Below, in pieces: positions 3,241 to 34,688 of a DNA stretch of 36,593 nucleotides (position 1 is its first letter; each line of letters begins with the position of its first letter). Source of the DNA: Chloroflexi bacterium OHK40 (GTDB taxonomy: Bacteria > Chloroflexota > Chloroflexia > Chloroflexales > Chloroflexaceae); contig SFCB01000165.1 in assembly GCA_004367505.1 (NCBI GenBank), positions 1 through 36,593 on the forward strand, written 5' to 3'. A program made the translations under genes and the position numbers. The notes beneath the pieces are model-generated. The model ran no database searches. It was given only the letters and a program-made list of their open reading frames with translations, and was not told the origin of the DNA.

Positions 3241-4083
3241 TCACTCCTCGAGGTTTTCGTCCTCGTCGCCCATATCCTGGTCGATCTCTTCGAGGCCGAG
3301 CTCCTCTTCCTCATCGCCGCCGATGAACTCCTCCTCGATCGTGCTATCGTCGTCGGTGGAGTCGTCGTCTTCGATCGCGTCTTCGTACTCCTCGTAGCGG
3401 AGGCCGGAGACATAGGTTGCGCCCTCGCCGAGCTTACCCGGGAAGGAGATCCGGTTGCGCTGGCTCGGGTCCTGGTAGGTCTCGCGGATGAGCAGACGCA
3501 CCGTACGCGGGTCGGTCTGGGCAATCGCGGCGAGGTAGCGGTTGCCACCACTGATCAACTCGGCGAGCCGCTGGCCGAGCTTGGGCTCAAGGCGACCGAT
3601 GGTATTGCCGTCGGCATCGATGACATAGACCGTCCTGCCCTCGACGCGGAACTCCATCTTCTCGCCGGTAATCAGGGCATCGACGGCGGGACCCCGCTGG
3701 AGGTCGATCAGGGTCGTAATGGCGGTGCGGCCCGTCTCGGTGATGAACATGCGCAAATCCACCTGCTGGCGGGCCTTGCGGTTGGCCTGACCACTCTCGA
3801 AGCCACGGGCGATCAGGGCATCAAGGCGGGCAAGGTTCTTGCGCGCGATCGTATTGGTAGGGTTGAGTCGCAGGGTCTGCTGATAGGCGTCGTGGGCCTC
3901 GGCGTACTGGCCGAGCTCCATCAGCGCCTTCCCGAGCCGGTTGTAGGTATCGGGGTCCTCGCCGGTGGCGAGGATCTGGCGATTCGTCTCGACGGCCTCT
4001 TCCCAACGGTTCGTCGCGGCGAGCTCCACAGCTTTCTCCTGGAGCCGGCGGCGAATACGCATCTTCTCATCTTGCTTGGCCAA
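3241..4083 (-). CDS. Tetratricopeptide-repeat protein with acidic C-terminal tail
   Basis: A 280-residue cytoplasmic protein with no signal peptide. A basic start (LAKQDEKMRIRRRL) leads into TPR helices at about residues 15-85 (RWEEAVETNRQIL, DTYNRLGKALMELGQYAEAHDAY, LRLNPTNTIARKNLARL). A middle domain of ~130 residues contains VYVIDADGNTIGRLEPKLGQ and is unassigned. The last ~50 residues are almost entirely Asp/Glu. The chosen start is the TTG at 4083, since AAGGAGAG stands 9 nt upstream and no ATG in the right place has such a site; the ATG eight codons later (MRIRRRL) is the alternative. TPR proteins usually scaffold other proteins, and the acidic tail suggests binding of a basic partner. 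The exact job is unknown. Confidence 0.8.
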   Translation of the reverse strand: MAKQDEKMRIRRRLQEKAVELAATNRWEEAVETNRQILATGEDPDTYNRLGKALMELGQYAEAHDAYQQTLRLNPTNTIARKNLARLDALIARGFESGQANRKARQQVDLRMFITETGRTAITTLIDLQRGPAVDALITGEKMEFRVEGRTVYVIDADGNTIGRLEPKLGQRLAELISGGNRYLAAIAQTDPRTVRLLIRETYQDPSQRNRISFPGKLGEGATYVSGLRYEEYEDAIEDDDSTDDDSTIEEEFIGGDEEEELGLEEIDQDMGDEDENLEE

Positions 4084-20803: not shown

Positions 20804-22834
20804 TCACACGTGGATGTAGTCCCGAATCGTTACGATCCACGTCACCAAACCGGCCCCGATGATCGCCGCGATTGCTGCCCACGCCGCTAGCTGACCCGGG
20901 CGCCCGCGTTGCCAGAGGGCATCGAGCGCCACCCCCGCGCCGAGGCACAGGGCGGGGTAGAGAAAGATTGCCCAGCGCACCCCCTGACCGGCAACGACCA
21001 GCAAGGCGAGGGTGAGCGCGGCGCCTAGCCACCAGGCCGCGAGCAGGGTCCGTACTGGCGCCGCGCCCGGTGCCCGCCGCCGCGCGAGGAGGAGCGCACC
21101 CGCGATCGCCAGCGGCCCGATCAGTGGTGGCAGCGCAACGCGCCGGTCCTCGGGGGGGGCGAGGCCAAGCAGGGCGAGTGCCGTGTCGGCCACGATGCGC
21201 AGCGGGGGGGTGCCTGCCACCCCGGTGCTCCCGGCACGCTCGCCGAGCGTCGCCAGCATGCTCGGCGCGGTGTAGTAGAGCAGCAGGGCGAGCCCGAGGC
21301 CCGCCGCCGCCCCGAACGTGAGGCGCGCCGGGTCGATTGGCGTTGCCCGCCCCCGCAGCCGGCCCGCCCAGCCCAGAGCCCACGCGGCCACGAGCAGCGC
21401 GCCCACCGAGAGCGTGACGCCGGAGTGGCCGAGGAGCCCCAGGGCCACGGCCACGACAAGAGCGATGGGGATGGGCACACTGCTTGTGGTGGCAGAGCGC
21501 CAACCCTCGCCAACAAGCCCGAGCCCGAGTAGCGCCAGGAGCGGTAGCACCAGGGCCTGGCCGCCCAGGTTGGCGTACTCGCCGATCGAGAAGGCCTCGA
21601 GGGCCGGCGTAGGCAGGAGGTAGCAGGCCGCGCCGAGCAGGGCCGCCCGTTGCCCCAGGCCCGCCCGACGAGTGAGCGCCCAGATCAGCAGGAGTGCCAG
21701 GCTGTCGAGCAGGGCGGTGCCCCCCTGGACCAGGAGGCGCCGGGAGCCATCCCCTGCCGCAAGGATCTGGCCTGGCAGGAGCACGAGGTAGAGCCCGGGG
21801 GGGTAGGGCGCCTGGCCGCCACCTGCGTCGCTCGGCAGCCCCGCGCTGAAGAAGACCTGCCCGAGTGTGACGCGGTAGAGATTGTTGGCATTGAAGCCCA
21901 GGTCGCTGAAGCGGGCATGGGGGTGGAGCATCCCGGCCATGCGCAGCGCGAAGGCTAGCAGGGTGAGGCCGAGGACCGGGGTAAGGGCGGCGCACCGTGG
22001 GCCCCGTGTGAGCGTCCAGACCACGGCGCCAGGTGCGGCGCAGCCCAGGGCGAGGAGCCCCAGGGCCGGTGCGACAAGCGTCAGGGCCGGGCGCGCGCCG
22101 GCGAGGGCGAAGGCCCCACCAGCGGCTGCGCCCCCGGCGAGGGCGAGCGCGCCACCCAGCCCGGCTCCAAAAGCGAGCGCCATCCCGTACACAACAAGTG
22201 TAGTGAGTGTGAGCCAGCCCAGCATCGGCCAGGCCGGCGCGCGCAGGCCGCCGCCCGCCGTCTGGAGGCGCACCTCGTGGAGTACAAAGCCCAGTTCGCG
22301 CGGGTCGCCCGGTGCCGCATAGGGCGTAGTGCGCATCGTGATGCGCACTACGCCCCGGTGATCGGCGGGAACGAGCAGCCGGTAGCGGCGCGGCTCGCCC
22401 GCAGGCAGGCTCACATCGAGCGGCAGTAAGGTACCTGCCGTCCAGACGCTCGGTGTGGGCACACCGTCGGGGCGGCCGCTGCGCGCCAGCAACTCCACGA
22501 GATAGCTGCCGCCGCCCGCCCCTGGCACCAGGAGCGTCGTCTCGGCACTCGTCCAGCGCAGGGGGCGTTCGCCGGTGCGCTGCAGGAGCTCAAACCACCA
22601 GATCTGGCGCTCACCGCCGGGATCGGCCGGGTCGGCCAGCCGATCGGGTGGCTCGGAGCCATTGATGCCCAGGAGGAAAGGGGCGTCGTCGTCCCGGCGC
22701 AGCAGGGCCAGATCGCCGCCAACACGGATGATCTGGTGAAGGGGGAACTGATAGGCGATGACCCAGAGGCACAGCGCGAGCAGCAGCAGAAAACCTGCGG
22801 CCAGCAGCTCGGGTTGCCAGGTGGTCCTGCGCAC
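20804..22834 (-). CDS. Large polytopic membrane protein, possibly GT-C-like
   Basis: A 676-residue integral membrane protein. One N-terminal membrane helix (~10-30) is followed by a large soluble, probably extracytoplasmic domain (~35-205). About a dozen Leu/Ala/Gly-rich membrane helices then fill ~210-670. Within the membrane part, an extracytoplasmic-looking loop NNLYRVTLGQVFFSAGLPSDAGG...YPPGLYLVLLPG recalls lipid-linked-sugar glycosyltransferases (GT-C fold), but I see no decisive catalytic Asp/Glu motif. The start is GTG at 22834, 6 bp after the stop of the preceding gene, so the two are coupled. Placement at the end of a methyltransferase/flippase-like operon supports a role with envelope lipids or glycans; this is inference. 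Confidence 0.72.
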   Translation of the reverse strand: MRRTTWQPELLAAGFLLLLALCLWVIAYQFPLHQIIRVGGDLALLRRDDDAPFLLGINGSEPPDRLADPADPGGERQIWWFELLQRTGERPLRWTSAETTLLVPGAGGGSYLVELLARSGRPDGVPTPSVWTAGTLLPLDVSLPAGEPRRYRLLVPADHRGVVRITMRTTPYAAPGDPRELGFVLHEVRLQTAGGGLRAPAWPMLGWLTLTTLVVYGMALAFGAGLGGALALAGGAAAGGAFALAGARPALTLVAPALGLLALGCAAPGAVVWTLTRGPRCAALTPVLGLTLLAFALRMAGMLHPHARFSDLGFNANNLYRVTLGQVFFSAGLPSDAGGGQAPYPPGLYLVLLPGQILAAGDGSRRLLVQGGTALLDSLALLLIWALTRRAGLGQRAALLGAACYLLPTPALEAFSIGEYANLGGQALVLPLLALLGLGLVGEGWRSATTSSVPIPIALVVAVALGLLGHSGVTLSVGALLVAAWALGWAGRLRGRATPIDPARLTFGAAAGLGLALLLYYTAPSMLATLGERAGSTGVAGTPPLRIVADTALALLGLAPPEDRRVALPPLIGPLAIAGALLLARRRAPGAAPVRTLLAAWWLGAALTLALLVVAGQGVRWAIFLYPALCLGAGVALDALWQRGRPGQLAAWAAIAAIIGAGLVTWIVTIRDYIHV

Positions 22835-29358: not shown

Positions 29359-30405
29359 TTACGATGCGGGATCGATGATGTTCCGCAGCGTGCCCAGGCC
29401 CGTTACCTCCAGTTCCACGACGTCGCTACGCTCCAGCCATGGCCCGAAGCCGCCGGTGGCCTCCAGCAATGTGCCGCCGGGCACCGGGCCTGCGGCGATC
29501 ACGTCGCCGGGCTCAAGGCTCGTGCCGCGGCTGGCGTGGGCCAGAAGCGCGGGGAAAGGGTAATACTGGCTGGCGGCAGTGGCCCGCGAGCGCTCGACCC
29601 CGTTCACGCGGGCGACCAGGCTGACGCTGAGGCGGCCCTCGTCGTCGGTGTAGAGTTCCAGTTCGTCGGGGGTGACGAGCCACGGGCCAAGCGAGGTGGC
29701 GAAATCGCGCGATTTGGCTGGCCCGGCGCCGAGGGTGCGTTCGAGCTCCTCGGCGTCGCGGTTGTACCAGATATTGGTGATCAGGTAGCCAGCGATCGCG
29801 GCGGTAGCCTCGTCGGGGGAGAGATCGCGGCCGGGCTGGCCCAGTACACAGGCCAGGCTGAGTCCGTAATCCAGCTCCTCGGCCGACGGCACCGGCACGG
29901 TGGCGTCGGGGCCAAAGACGGCGGCGTGGTTGGCGAAGCTGAAGCTGGGGCCTCGGTACCAGGCAGCGGGGAGGCTCAGGCCGCGCAGGCTGCGGGCCGC
30001 GATCGCATGTTCCTCGAAGGCCTCGTAGACGCGCAGGCTCGCCGGGCGAGGCAATGGGGCGAGCAGGCGCACCTGGCTGAGCGGTAGGAGCATCGCCGCG
30101 CCGCCGATCGAGAGGCTGCCCGCCAGGCTTGCCGGGAGCTCGTCGAAGCCTGGCTCGTCCAGGCTCAGCCCCCCGAACTCGGGCTCGGCGCCCACCATCT
30201 GGGCAACGGCCGCCACGATATCGGCGGCGGCATCGAGGTTTACCTCATCCTGGTCGGCCCGGAGCAGGCTGAGCATATCCCAGCGCAGGCCCTCGGCCTC
30301 CTCGATCAGTAAGGGCGCGGCGGCGGCCAGGTCGATCACCGACTCGCCGAGGAGCGCACCGGCGCGGGGTGGACCTTCGGGCGGTACGAAGGTGACAAGT
30401 TTCAT
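29359..30405 (-). CDS. Fumarylacetoacetate-hydrolase-family protein with lost metal ligands
   Basis: A 348-residue member of the FAH family, by overall pattern a C-C bond hydrolase or decarboxylase: RVYEAFEEHA near residue 125, SFSFANHAAVFGPDATVP, ELDYGLSLACVLGQPGRDL, GPAKSRDFATSLGPWLVTPDEL, and a C-terminal GDVIAAGPVPGGTL. The family normally binds Mg/Mn through an ExE pair (LDYExE), an Asp in NDxSARD and an Asp before the catalytic His (RDFYAFEEH). Here these read DYGLS, NIWYNRD and RVYEAFEEH, so the four acidic ligands appear replaced by Gly, Ser, Ile and Val, while the catalytic His and the GPAKS lysine remain. It lies near hpd but has its own promoter and no leader. It may be a pseudoenzyme or have a new activity. 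Confidence 0.82.
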   Translation of the reverse strand: MKLVTFVPPEGPPRAGALLGESVIDLAAAAPLLIEEAEGLRWDMLSLLRADQDEVNLDAAADIVAAVAQMVGAEPEFGGLSLDEPGFDELPASLAGSLSIGGAAMLLPLSQVRLLAPLPRPASLRVYEAFEEHAIAARSLRGLSLPAAWYRGPSFSFANHAAVFGPDATVPVPSAEELDYGLSLACVLGQPGRDLSPDEATAAIAGYLITNIWYNRDAEELERTLGAGPAKSRDFATSLGPWLVTPDELELYTDDEGRLSVSLVARVNGVERSRATAASQYYPFPALLAHASRGTSLEPGDVIAAGPVPGGTLLEATGGFGPWLERSDVVELEVTGLGTLRNIIDPAS

Positions 30406-30458: not shown

Positions 30459-32252
30459 CTACAACACGGAGCGCAGGTGGGTCGCCAGGCGCAATGCCAG
30501 CGCGGCGAGCGTGAGGGTGGGGTTGGCCGCCGGCGAGGAGGGAAAGACCGCGAGATCGCATGCGTAGAGGTTCTCGTAGGCGCGAAACTTCAGGTTGGTG
30601 TCTACCACGCCTTCGGGACCCATGCGCAAGGTGCCAACCTCGTGGGCAACGCCGCCCATAGGTGCCCGTACCAGGTTCAGGGTGCCACCCGGCAGGGGTA
30701 CGGCGCCGAGCAGCCCGAGGATCTGATCCCGCAGGGTGTTGATCTCGGCCCACTCCGCCCCACTGATCGGTGGCTCCCGCATCGTCACCACTGGCTTCAT
30801 GAAGGACGGTCCCGGCTGGGCCAGGCCGTTCTCGTTCAGCAACGGGGCATCGAAGAGCACCACCAGCTCGCAGAGCATCAGACCACCGCGTGCGGCGATG
30901 GCAGCCCCCAGGATCTCCGGGTCGACGAAGCGCCCCTGGTTGAAGTCGCTGCCAAGCTCCAGTACGACATTGTAGCGGTGGTGGTAGCTGCGCGGCGGCC
31001 CGGCCTCGGTGCGGGCGTCGCGGTGCTGTAGCAGCAGCTTGGCGGCGGCGTCGGCCCGGTGCAGCGGCGCTCCAGCAGGCAGCGCGAAGTGCGTGAAGAA
31101 GATCGGGTGGTCGGTGATACCCGCGCCGATCATCCCGCTCGGGTCGTTCAGGCCACTCAGCAGAGCCAGCTTGGCGCTCTCTACGGTGCCGGCCGCCAGA
31201 ACCACGGCGCGCGCGCGATAGGTTCGCTGCGTGTCGGCGATCAGGTCGTGGGCCAGCACGCCCGTGGCGCGCCCGCCTTCGGTGAGGATCGCCACGGCGG
31301 CATGGTTCAGGTTGATGGTGAGTTGCTGATTGCCGCTTGGCCCGCCGGTCAAGCGCGATTCCATCAGCAGGTCGGCGGTGGAGAAGATACCGGCGGGGAT
31401 GGTGTTCAGCTGCGGCTGCGAGTGCTGTACCGCCATCGGGGCGCCCATCACTACGTAGTCGGGCATGGCGCGGGTGAGCTCTGCGCGCACGCGGCGCTGA
31501 TAGTCGCTGTCGAGCTGAGAGCGCTTGAGTAGCTCTTCGGCCAGGGTGTAGCCGTGATCTTCCAGGTACCAGCGCACCTCCTGGGGCCACGTCTCCAGTT
31601 CCCACCAGCTCATCCGTGGGATGAGGCCACCCCAGAAGACGCTGCGCCCGCCGAGGTTGAATCCCTGGCCGCCCTGGTAGGCCGAACCCGGCCCGTTGAC
31701 GTAGTTCGTCACCTTGAAGTCGTCCCACAGGTGCCAGATGTGCTTGTCTACTCGCGGCGCGAGGGTGTGCTGGCGCGGCAGGTTGCCCACATGGCCTGGC
31801 ACCAGGTAGCTGCCAGCCTCGAGCACCAGCACATCGAGCCCCAGATCGGCCAGCTGGTCGGCCAGGATGCCGCCGCCGACGCCGGAGCCGATGACGATCA
31901 CATCGTATTCGTGGTTCGGGTCGAGGTTTGGCGAAAAGAAGCGCTGCTGGATGAAGCCGTTCTCTACGAGCAGTTCGCCGATCGGCGGGAAGACCACCTG
32001 GCCGGGGCCGTAGGTGTAGGTGGCGCCGTCGGTGGGCTGGAGAAAGAGGTTGCCACCCTCCATCCAGTACTGGCCCTCCAGCACGAACTTGAAGAACATG
32101 CCCCCGGCGTAGCGCGCTGAGTCCAGGCGAAAGATCCAGGCGTCGTTCTCGTACACGCCGCCGAGGTCGTTCTGCCAGCCGTCAACGTCGCTGCGGATGG
32201 TCACCGACAGGTCCGGGCGGTAGCGGATGGTCTGAAAGCGAATGGTGAACAT
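30459..32252 (-). CDS. GMC-family flavin oxidoreductase with N-terminal beta domain
   Basis: A 597-residue glucose-methanol-choline oxidoreductase, an FAD enzyme that oxidises an alcohol. Residues 1-85 form an extra domain (VTIRSDVDGWQNDLGG, FFKFVLEGQYWMEGGNLFLQP) resembling starch/glycogen-binding beta sandwiches (CBM20/48-like). The FAD dinucleotide fold starts at ~117 (VIVIGSGVGGG), with GGRSVFWGG further on, and the C-terminal catalytic pair is H537 (AHEVGTLRMG) and N577 (PAANPTLT). There is no signal peptide. The start at 32252 has GGAGGTG 6 nt upstream, and that site lies inside a strong leader hairpin. The substrate is unknown; the extra domain suggests a carbohydrate or polymer-linked alcohol. 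FAH-like gene and hpd flank it, each with its own promoter or terminator. Confidence 0.87.
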   Translation of the reverse strand: MFTIRFQTIRYRPDLSVTIRSDVDGWQNDLGGVYENDAWIFRLDSARYAGGMFFKFVLEGQYWMEGGNLFLQPTDGATYTYGPGQVVFPPIGELLVENGFIQQRFFSPNLDPNHEYDVIVIGSGVGGGILADQLADLGLDVLVLEAGSYLVPGHVGNLPRQHTLAPRVDKHIWHLWDDFKVTNYVNGPGSAYQGGQGFNLGGRSVFWGGLIPRMSWWELETWPQEVRWYLEDHGYTLAEELLKRSQLDSDYQRRVRAELTRAMPDYVVMGAPMAVQHSQPQLNTIPAGIFSTADLLMESRLTGGPSGNQQLTINLNHAAVAILTEGGRATGVLAHDLIADTQRTYRARAVVLAAGTVESAKLALLSGLNDPSGMIGAGITDHPIFFTHFALPAGAPLHRADAAAKLLLQHRDARTEAGPPRSYHHRYNVVLELGSDFNQGRFVDPEILGAAIAARGGLMLCELVVLFDAPLLNENGLAQPGPSFMKPVVTMREPPISGAEWAEINTLRDQILGLLGAVPLPGGTLNLVRAPMGGVAHEVGTLRMGPEGVVDTNLKFRAYENLYACDLAVFPSSPAANPTLTLAALALRLATHLRSVL

Positions 32253-32254
32253 AG

Positions 32255-32297
32255 CGCACCTCCGGGAGAGATTGCATCTCGTTACCCCGGAGGTGCG
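32255..32297 (-). promoter_or_regulatory. Leader hairpin hiding the ribosome site of the GMC gene
   Basis: CGCACCTCCGGG (32255-32266) and CCCGGAGGTGCG (32286-32297) are perfect 12-bp arms. In the mRNA the 3' arm contains the GGAGGTG ribosome site, 2 nt before the start codon, so folding would block translation. The 19-nt loop holds a second small stem (GAGAT / ATCTC). It could be an RNA thermometer, a ligand- or protein-controlled switch, or a DNA operator. Confidence 0.65.
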
Positions 32298-32311
32298 ATG
32301 TGTGCGGGTGC

Positions 32312-32338
32312 GGGGCGTTCCTTTTGAAGGAACGCCCC
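32312..32338. promoter_or_regulatory. Perfect 12-bp hairpin upstream of the GMC leader switch
   Basis: GGGGCGTTCCTT (32312-32323) and AAGGAACGCCCC (32327-32338) pair perfectly around a 3-nt loop, 14 nt ahead of the ribosome-site hairpin. If transcribed, the two stems stack in tandem in the leader. There is no T tract after it on either strand. Confidence 0.55.
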
Positions 32339-32477
32339 CCACGCCAGTTTTTGCCGGATGGCTCGCTAGCTGCTCACCACGGTAATTGTGCGGGATTGCG
32401 AACCTGCTGAGATTCCCTGATGAGACGGTCTGTACCGGCAGGACCAGGGCGGTGGGCCATGAGTGCCGCCGTCCGGA

Positions 32478-32534: not shown

Positions 32535-32551
32535 TGGGGGCAGGCCGCTGG

Positions 32552-32578
32552 CCCCCGCTCCCAGCACGGGAGCGGGGG
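32552..32578. repeat. 11-bp perfect hairpin
   Basis: CCCCCGCTCCC (32552-32562) pairs with GGGAGCGGGGG (32568-32578) around a 5-nt loop. It replaces the expected right arm of the neighbouring palindromic repeat. Confidence 0.5.
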
Positions 32579-32639
32579 AAGGCTGCCCGCCAGGATGCGG
32601 CAAACCGCCACTCGTCTGCCCGAGCTGTCAGCCCCTGAA

Positions 32640-32670: not shown

Positions 32671-33771
32671 TCAGAGGTTCCCGCGCCGGGCCTGCTCGCG
32701 CTCGATGGCCTCGAAGAGCGCCTTGAAGTTGCCTTTGCCGAAGCCCCGGCTGCCCTTGCGCTGAATAATCTCGATGAAGAGCGTGGGCCGGTCCTGCATG
32801 GGCTGGCTGAAGATCTGTAGCAGGTAGCCCTCCTCGTCGCGGTCCACGAGGATGCCGCGCTCCTGGAGCGCCTGGCGGCTCTCATCGATCCTGCCGACGC
32901 GGCTCTCCAGATCGTCGTAGTAGGCGGGCGGTACCTTGATAAAGGGGATCCCCGCGCTGCGGAGGGCATCGACAGTGGCGCAGATATCGCCGGTGGCGAG
33001 GGCGATGTGCTGTACGCCGGGGCCGCCGTAGTACTCGAGATACTCCTCGATCTGGCTCTTCTTGCGGCCCTCGGCGGGCTCGTTGATCGGGAACTTGATC
33101 TTGCCGGTGCCGTTCTGCATCACCTTCGACATCAGGGCCGAGTACTCGGTGGAGATATCCTGGTCGTCGAAGTGGACGAGTTGCCGAAATCCCAGCACGT
33201 CGCGGTAGTAATTCACCCAGCGTTCCATGTGGCCGAGCTCGACGTTGCCGACGATGTGGTCGATCGCGGCGATGCCGGTTTCGGGAACGGGGGGGCGCTC
33301 CTCGATCGCGCGGTAACCGGGCGCAAAGGGGCCTTCGTAGCCGTCGCGCTCGATGAAGCTATGTACGGTATCGCCGTACGTGCGGATGGATGCCTTGACG
33401 ATCCGGCCGTGGGCATCCTCGACGACGGTGGGCTCCAGCGCGCTCTCGGCGCCGTTCCGCAGGGCCGCCTCGTAGGCTGCCACGGCGTCGCGCACGCGCA
33501 GGGCGATGTCCTTGACGCCATCGCCGTGGCGGGCGATGTGCTCGCCGATCGGGTGGCCGGGTGTGAGCGGGGCGGTGAGCACAAAGCGCACGTTGCGGCG
33601 CTGCAGGACGTAGCTCGCCCGATCGCGCACGCCGGTCTCCAGCCCGGCATAGGCTACCGGTGTGAGCCCGAGGGTGCTGCGGTAGAAATGGGCCGCCTGG
33701 CGCGCGTTGCTGACGTAAAACTCGACGTAATCGATCCCGAAGAGGTCCAGCGGGTCGGGTGCAGACGCCAT
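32671..33771 (-). CDS. hpd: 4-hydroxyphenylpyruvate dioxygenase
   Basis: Hpd converts 4-hydroxyphenylpyruvate to homogentisate with Fe(II) and O2, the second step of tyrosine breakdown and also the entry to plastoquinone/tocopherol-type quinones. The 366-residue protein shows two vicinal-oxygen-chelate halves and all three iron ligands: H172 (IDHIVGNV), H255 (GVQHIALAT) and E334 (LFIEIIQR). The conserved C-terminal helix (GFGKGNFKALFEAIEREQ) and KIKFPINEPAEG are intact. AAAGGAG lies 7 nt before the ATG. It follows the TrmB-like regulator by 61 bp and is most likely read from that gene's promoter. Homogentisate dioxygenase is not in the window. Confidence 0.96.
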   Translation of the reverse strand: MASAPDPLDLFGIDYVEFYVSNARQAAHFYRSTLGLTPVAYAGLETGVRDRASYVLQRRNVRFVLTAPLTPGHPIGEHIARHGDGVKDIALRVRDAVAAYEAALRNGAESALEPTVVEDAHGRIVKASIRTYGDTVHSFIERDGYEGPFAPGYRAIEERPPVPETGIAAIDHIVGNVELGHMERWVNYYRDVLGFRQLVHFDDQDISTEYSALMSKVMQNGTGKIKFPINEPAEGRKKSQIEEYLEYYGGPGVQHIALATGDICATVDALRSAGIPFIKVPPAYYDDLESRVGRIDESRQALQERGILVDRDEEGYLLQIFSQPMQDRPTLFIEIIQRKGSRGFGKGNFKALFEAIEREQARRGNL

Positions 33772-34662: not shown

Positions 34663-34688
34663 ATGTCACCACTCATGAGTGGTGACAT
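34663..34688. promoter_or_regulatory. 26-bp perfect palindrome: operator of the regulator-hpd operon
   Basis: All 13 base pairs match around the centre at 34675/34676; each half begins ATGTCACCACTCA from its outer end. The palindrome overlaps the last bases of the -10 box and the predicted transcription start, so a bound dimer would block the promoter. The most likely ligand is the TrmB-like protein encoded next to it. Confidence 0.8.

Follow-up and report, generated by a model that had tools for sequence, protein, structure and literature searches.

RNA thermometers of the ROSE and fourU types hold the ribosome site in a weak helix, which contains mismatches or AU and GU pairs. In phage T4, the ribosome sites of gene e, soc, 49 and I-TevI are sequestered by hairpins in the leader (PMC3014915). 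Hairpin-cluster intrinsic terminators keep close to the end of coding sequences, with 98% of the sites located within 80 nt of a stop codon (PMC8355165). Here, we analyzed the leader of a gene for a GMC family FAD oxidoreductase in a Chloroflexales-like bacterium, in which two perfect hairpins precede the start codon and one of them is predicted to cover the ribosome site.

Two hairpins ahead of a GMC oxidoreductase gene

The window, by which we mean the whole stretch of DNA analyzed, is a complete 36.6-kb contig of a 6.9-Mb genome in 301 contigs. On its minus strand, the genes are arranged in the order TrmB-like regulator, 4-hydroxyphenylpyruvate dioxygenase (HPPD), GMC oxidoreductase and FAA-hydrolase-family gene, with a 418-nt gap (GC content, 69%) between the HPPD and GMC genes. 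The ATG of the GMC gene was confirmed by comparison, as all eight homologues with upstream sequence start at the same MFTI/MFRI codon. Two perfect 12-bp stems, HP1 and HP2, precede this gene and are separated by 14 nt (32298–32311), exactly as the original prediction had described them (Table 1). HP1 has a 3-nt loop and forms part of a 16-nt repeat with 94% complementarity, and HP2 is embedded in an 18-nt repeat, 89% complementary, that extends to the start codon. The pairing of GGAGGTG with an upstream complement, which had also been predicted, was found in HP2 and was present in the predicted fold; six bases lie between the GGAGG core (32259–32263) and the ATG. Folding of the region as RNA gave −73.1 kcal/mol compared with −49.6 ± 4 kcal/mol in dinucleotide shuffles (z = −5.9; computed on the plus strand, with the minus-strand fold yielding the same stems), and both stems were present in the minimum-energy and centroid structures. 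In the predicted fold, the GMC ribosome site, which serves an authentic start codon, is paired stably with a segment of its leader, as in a sequestering hairpin.

Two further observations concern the same strand. In the FAA-hydrolase-family gene, six bases separate a TATAAT from the ATG at 30405, which suggests that this gene is expressed downstream of the GMC gene from its own promoter, as a leaderless or near-leaderless mRNA. A perfect 16-bp stem with a 2-nt loop was observed at 22322–22355 of the window, within an apparent minus-strand coding frame.

Table 1. Coordinates of the features at the GMC oxidoreductase locus
Feature	Position	Strand	Description
FAA-hydrolase family gene, downstream of GMC	29359–30405	−	own TATAAT, 30417–30412
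GMC family FAD oxidoreductase gene	30459–32252	−	597 aa, ATG at 32252; PF05199, PF00732
HP2 3′ arm, CCCGGAGGTGCG, with the ribosome site	32255–32266	−	sequence, predicted fold
Shine-Dalgarno GGAGGTG in HP2 3′ arm	32257–32263	−	opening energy 18.6 kcal/mol
HP2 apical part, 19 nt, with extra 5-bp helix GAGAT-GCA-ATCTC	32267–32285	−	predicted fold
HP2 5′ arm (anti-ribosome-site), CGCACCTCCGGG	32286–32297	−	sequence, predicted fold
HP1 3′ arm, AAGGAACGCCCC	32312–32323	−	sequence; no T-tract after
HP1 5′ arm, GGGGCGTTCCTT (read on minus strand)	32327–32338	−	sequence
Terminator-like hairpin without T-tract	32539–32591	−	about 80 nt behind HPPD stop codon
HPPD gene, upstream, same direction	32671–33771	−	TIGR01263, 451.9 bits

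Our preferred reading, to which we give somewhat less than even confidence, is that HP2 silences the translation of long or read-through RNA, and that the productive RNA lacks the 5′ arm or a factor opens the helix. An RNA starting upstream of 32297, either by read-through from HPPD or from a promoter higher in the gap, would carry the 5′ arm of HP2, and pairing of this arm with GGAGGTG would block the translation of GMC. GMC would then be translated from RNA without the arm, generated by a start or a cleavage inside the hairpin; a factor opening the HP2 helix would be the alternative to such a short RNA. HP1 would be a stable upstream hairpin helping to separate the two transcription units, probably as a terminator without a U-tract or as a stabilizer of the 5′ end. 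The HPPD gene is a possible source of RNA reading into the leader, and read-through is plausible because this gene lies upstream in the same direction and is associated with terminator-like hairpins lacking U-tracts. Confidence in silencing is limited because it presupposes both transcription through HP2 and an internal start, which we infer. The perfect stem over the ribosome site, predicted to be closed at all temperatures modeled, argues for silencing, and so stable a stem leaves the switching on of GMC unexplained unless a start inside HP2 exists.

Promoters, rarity and conservation at the locus

The genome has recognizable TTGACA-17-TATAAT promoters, usually 10–90 nt ahead of the start codon, and the promoter of the TrmB-like gene (34715–34687) matches at 11 of 12 positions. 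In the 418-nt gap before the GMC gene, no sigma-70 promoter was recognizable and no match exceeded 7/12. One of the four matches at that level, ATCGCA-17-TGCAAT (32299–32271), would start RNA within HP2 and drop the 5′ arm, but a score of 7/12 is no better than chance or than the rest of the gap. That this was the best placement of a promoter from which RNA would start inside HP2 counts against silencing. The paired DNA operators of the original prediction are retained as an unlikely alternative, in which a regulator binds the two inverted repeats and their folding as RNA is incidental. Long perfect palindromes adjoin the −10 box at other promoters of this genome, HP1 is a 27-bp near-continuous palindrome and about three helical turns separate the arms of HP2, all of which would suit operators; however, there is no recognizable promoter beside either repeat, both repeats are GC-rich and have no second copy in the genome, and it would be a coincidence that the ribosome site is covered so exactly. 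An evident example of such a palindrome nearby is a perfect 26-bp sequence, ATGTCACCACTCATGAGTGGTGACAT, at 34663–34688. It overlaps the −10 box in front of the TrmB-like gene, is present as a single copy in the window and is likely an autoregulatory operator of that gene. An operator common to this palindrome and the GMC leader was rejected, as the sequences differ and the window contains the palindrome only once.

The rarity of the hairpins was assessed on about 780 kb of the 6.9-Mb genome, with some counts made on 420 kb. Gene calling was simple (longest open frames with high GC3), and some of the sampled starts are not real, which blurs the background but does not create the HP2 outlier. 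Perfect stems of at least 12 bp with loops of 3–25 nt numbered 20 in 420 kb, compared with 4 in Markov-shuffled sequence. Such stems thus occur about once per 17–20 kb, so that a single perfect 12-bp stem is not extraordinary in this genome. Two perfect stems of at least 12 bp within 100 bp of each other were found only at the GMC leader in about 780 kb, and HP2 is an extreme outlier. When 203 starts with a ribosome site were sampled in 420 kb, no other site was covered by a stem longer than 8 bp, in contrast to the 12 bp of HP2. Opening the HP2 ribosome site requires 18.6 kcal/mol, whereas 193 other starts with a Shine-Dalgarno site (780 kb) had a mean of 4.1, a standard deviation of 2.3 and a maximum of 10.7 kcal/mol, and shuffled leaders (n = 300) reached no more than 13.5 kcal/mol. 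A search of the genome for a second copy of the hairpin pair returned only the GMC leader, and a dispersed palindromic repeat of the REP or MITE type was rejected on this ground.

Separately, short perfect palindromes with a core such as GGGACGCAGC...GCTGCGTCCC or GACGCCCC...GGGGCGTC were seen to recur in the genome (L072, 1549–1592; L090, 2559–2594; L082, 15713–15738; L095, 9436–9463 and 10851–10879; window, 59–85), and these are possibly a family of dispersed palindromic repeats.

Homologues of the GMC gene were found at nine loci (49–62% identity) in a collection of 85,000 species, eight of them with upstream sequence. Among 158 genomes of the class, only three carried a true GMC homologue, including the window's own genome, and the only close homologues within the class were in two MAGs of the same GTDB family, which makes the source probably a member of Chloroflexales. 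The conservation of the stems in relatives that the original prediction called for was absent: neither HP1 nor HP2 was present in any of the eight leaders, but these homologues are only 49–62% identical, and in both same-family relatives the genes upstream are another pair, patatin-like and PAS-GGDEF (names from sequence reading alone). Opening the SD-like sites of the homologues costs 2–8 kcal/mol, and a clear SD is lacking in some of them. The hairpins thus appear particular to this lineage at the available sampling, with relatives too distant to be decisive. In another family member (L038, about 3900–3975), the start of the GMC homologue is preceded at about 110 nt by a long hairpin, almost perfectly paired (AAAGAACAGCGAACAAAG...CTTTGTTCGCTGTTCTTT), with T residues after it; this is probably a terminator.

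The lack of hairpins in all eight homologous genes weighs against silencing and favors the reading, in our view also improbable, that the hairpins are incidental, with HP1 as a terminator-like hairpin without a U-tract and HP2 the product of chance or of a fold-back mutation with no regulatory role. In the 780 kb, most intergenic stems of at least 12 bp lie directly behind stop codons, usually without a T-tract, and for these reasons they look like terminators without U-tracts; HP1 by itself is similar. Such stems are common in the intergenic DNA of this genome, and transcription may begin below the 5′ arm of HP2. Against this, about 330 nt, with another terminator-like hairpin among them, separate HP1 from the HPPD stop codon, and HP2 is the most extreme of all the ribosome sites sampled. 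A canonical intrinsic terminator was rejected, since no minus-strand T-tract follows HP1 or HP2 and the terminator scan was negative.

A regulated switch, in which a ligand, protein, small RNA or upstream translation opens HP2, would fit the long structured gap, the sequestered site and the tandem hairpins, and is nevertheless decidedly unlikely. The Rfam search of the leader gave no match at the gathering threshold (permissive matches were far below it and mostly to eukaryotic microRNAs), and a known riboswitch or cis-regulatory RNA family was rejected accordingly. Translational coupling to a leader peptide was likewise rejected, because no ORF with a ribosome site enters the 5′ arm of HP2; a 28-aa ORF at 32460–32374 stops before both hairpins. 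The predicted fold offered no evident alternative partner to the anti-ribosome-site arm, and a simple opening factor would have to overcome about 18 kcal/mol. An RNA thermometer melting upon warming would account for a stem over the ribosome site but is hardly credible, as the stem is perfect, GC-rich and without weak pairs, and the probability that GGAGGTG is unpaired is 0.0001 at 37°C and only 0.003 at 80°C in the energy model. Of the translational control proposed originally, sequestration of the ribosome site is strongly supported as a structural prediction, whereas the thermometer gained no support and no known metabolite-switch family matched.

The comM element of Chloroflexales

The pattern CACCTCC-N-GGAGGTG-N-ATG was searched for in the 158 genomes of the class. 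Besides the GMC locus, three genomes of one genus carried an identical 13-bp ribosome-site hairpin directly before comM (yifB). From 50 comM leaders of the order, a two-part element, CGTAWCYT-N14/15-CGGTAYA, was identified about 25–55 nt before comM (L160–L166, L168, L170, L177, L182, L185, L190 (G000:C36), L194, L196, L197 and others). Both boxes were cleanly found in 18 loci, always with a spacing of 14 or 15; the remaining assignments among the comM leaders were either artefacts of the regular expression or loci lacking the element. The spacer complements the ribosome-site region of its own gene. Its pairing with its own leader averaged −17.7 kcal/mol, compared with −13.1 ± 0.76 kcal/mol after spacers and leaders had been permuted across loci, and none of 20,000 permutations was as good (18 non-redundant loci; as these include related species, the significance is overstated).

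In 31 genomes, the element occurred more than 50 times, compared with fewer than 10 for a reversed control, and 26 sites were in a single genome (G012). In the window's own genome it precedes recJ (L210), ssb (L211) and a PLD-like gene named by eye (L212), and in relatives it precedes recA (L242, G012), radC (L237, G006) and ssb (L213, L214, L249). At 33 sites of this regulon type, the complementarity between spacer and leader was weaker (P = 0.0016). The fixed spacing suggests an alternative sigma factor promoter or an activator site of a competence or DNA-repair regulon, and the position before repair and recombination genes, with the excess over the reversed control, suggests a competence or DNA-damage regulon. 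Should CGGTAYA prove to be a −10 element, comM would follow the logic of T4 gene e. No Rfam family covers the element, and a literature search found no description of it. The result points to an arrangement that may be under selection in Chloroflexales, a group with little-studied gene regulation, and the comM element is probably more interesting than the GMC hairpins.

The comM leaders bear on the GMC gene in two ways. Because their spacers complement their own ribosome-site region, stems over ribosome sites may be used in this group, which argues for silencing by HP2. Inspection of the GMC gene did not reveal the promoter-like motif itself, whose three exact matches in this genome lie elsewhere, and this argues against silencing. 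A wider and doubtful reading is that, throughout the order, an anti-ribosome-site arm built into or just before the promoter shields chosen genes from read-through, with GMC as one case and comM as a conserved one. If so, only RNA from a gene's own promoter would be translated.

Comparison with known systems

The GMC leader is a real and locally extreme feature of a known kind. It probably represents ordinary leader control, for which silencing of long RNA by HP2 offers a plausible mechanism. As in the hairpin-cluster terminators (PMC8355165), stable adjacent hairpins lie in a gap and a U-tract is not required; unlike them, HP1 and HP2 lie 330–420 nt behind the HPPD stop codon and directly ahead of a start codon. 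The ribosome site is in a helix, as in ROSE and fourU thermometers, but HP2 is perfect, GC-rich and closed below 80°C in the model. In the comM (yifB) leaders, which belong to the same order, the ribosome site likewise pairs with an upstream arm directly before the ATG. The comM genes differ in having CGTAWCYT-N14/15-CGGTAYA with the spacer as 5′ arm, and the sequences are unrelated.

The likeness to T4 gene e, soc, 49 and I-TevI is that a helix would sequester the ribosome site in RNA started upstream, and that a start inside the hairpin would free it. Unlike the T4 leaders, the GMC leader belongs to a chromosomal metabolic gene and has two tandem hairpins and no recognizable promoter inside the hairpin. 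If the helix works as predicted, it would provide a clean chromosomal, non-phage case in which one class of transcript keeps the ribosome site shut while another leaves it accessible.
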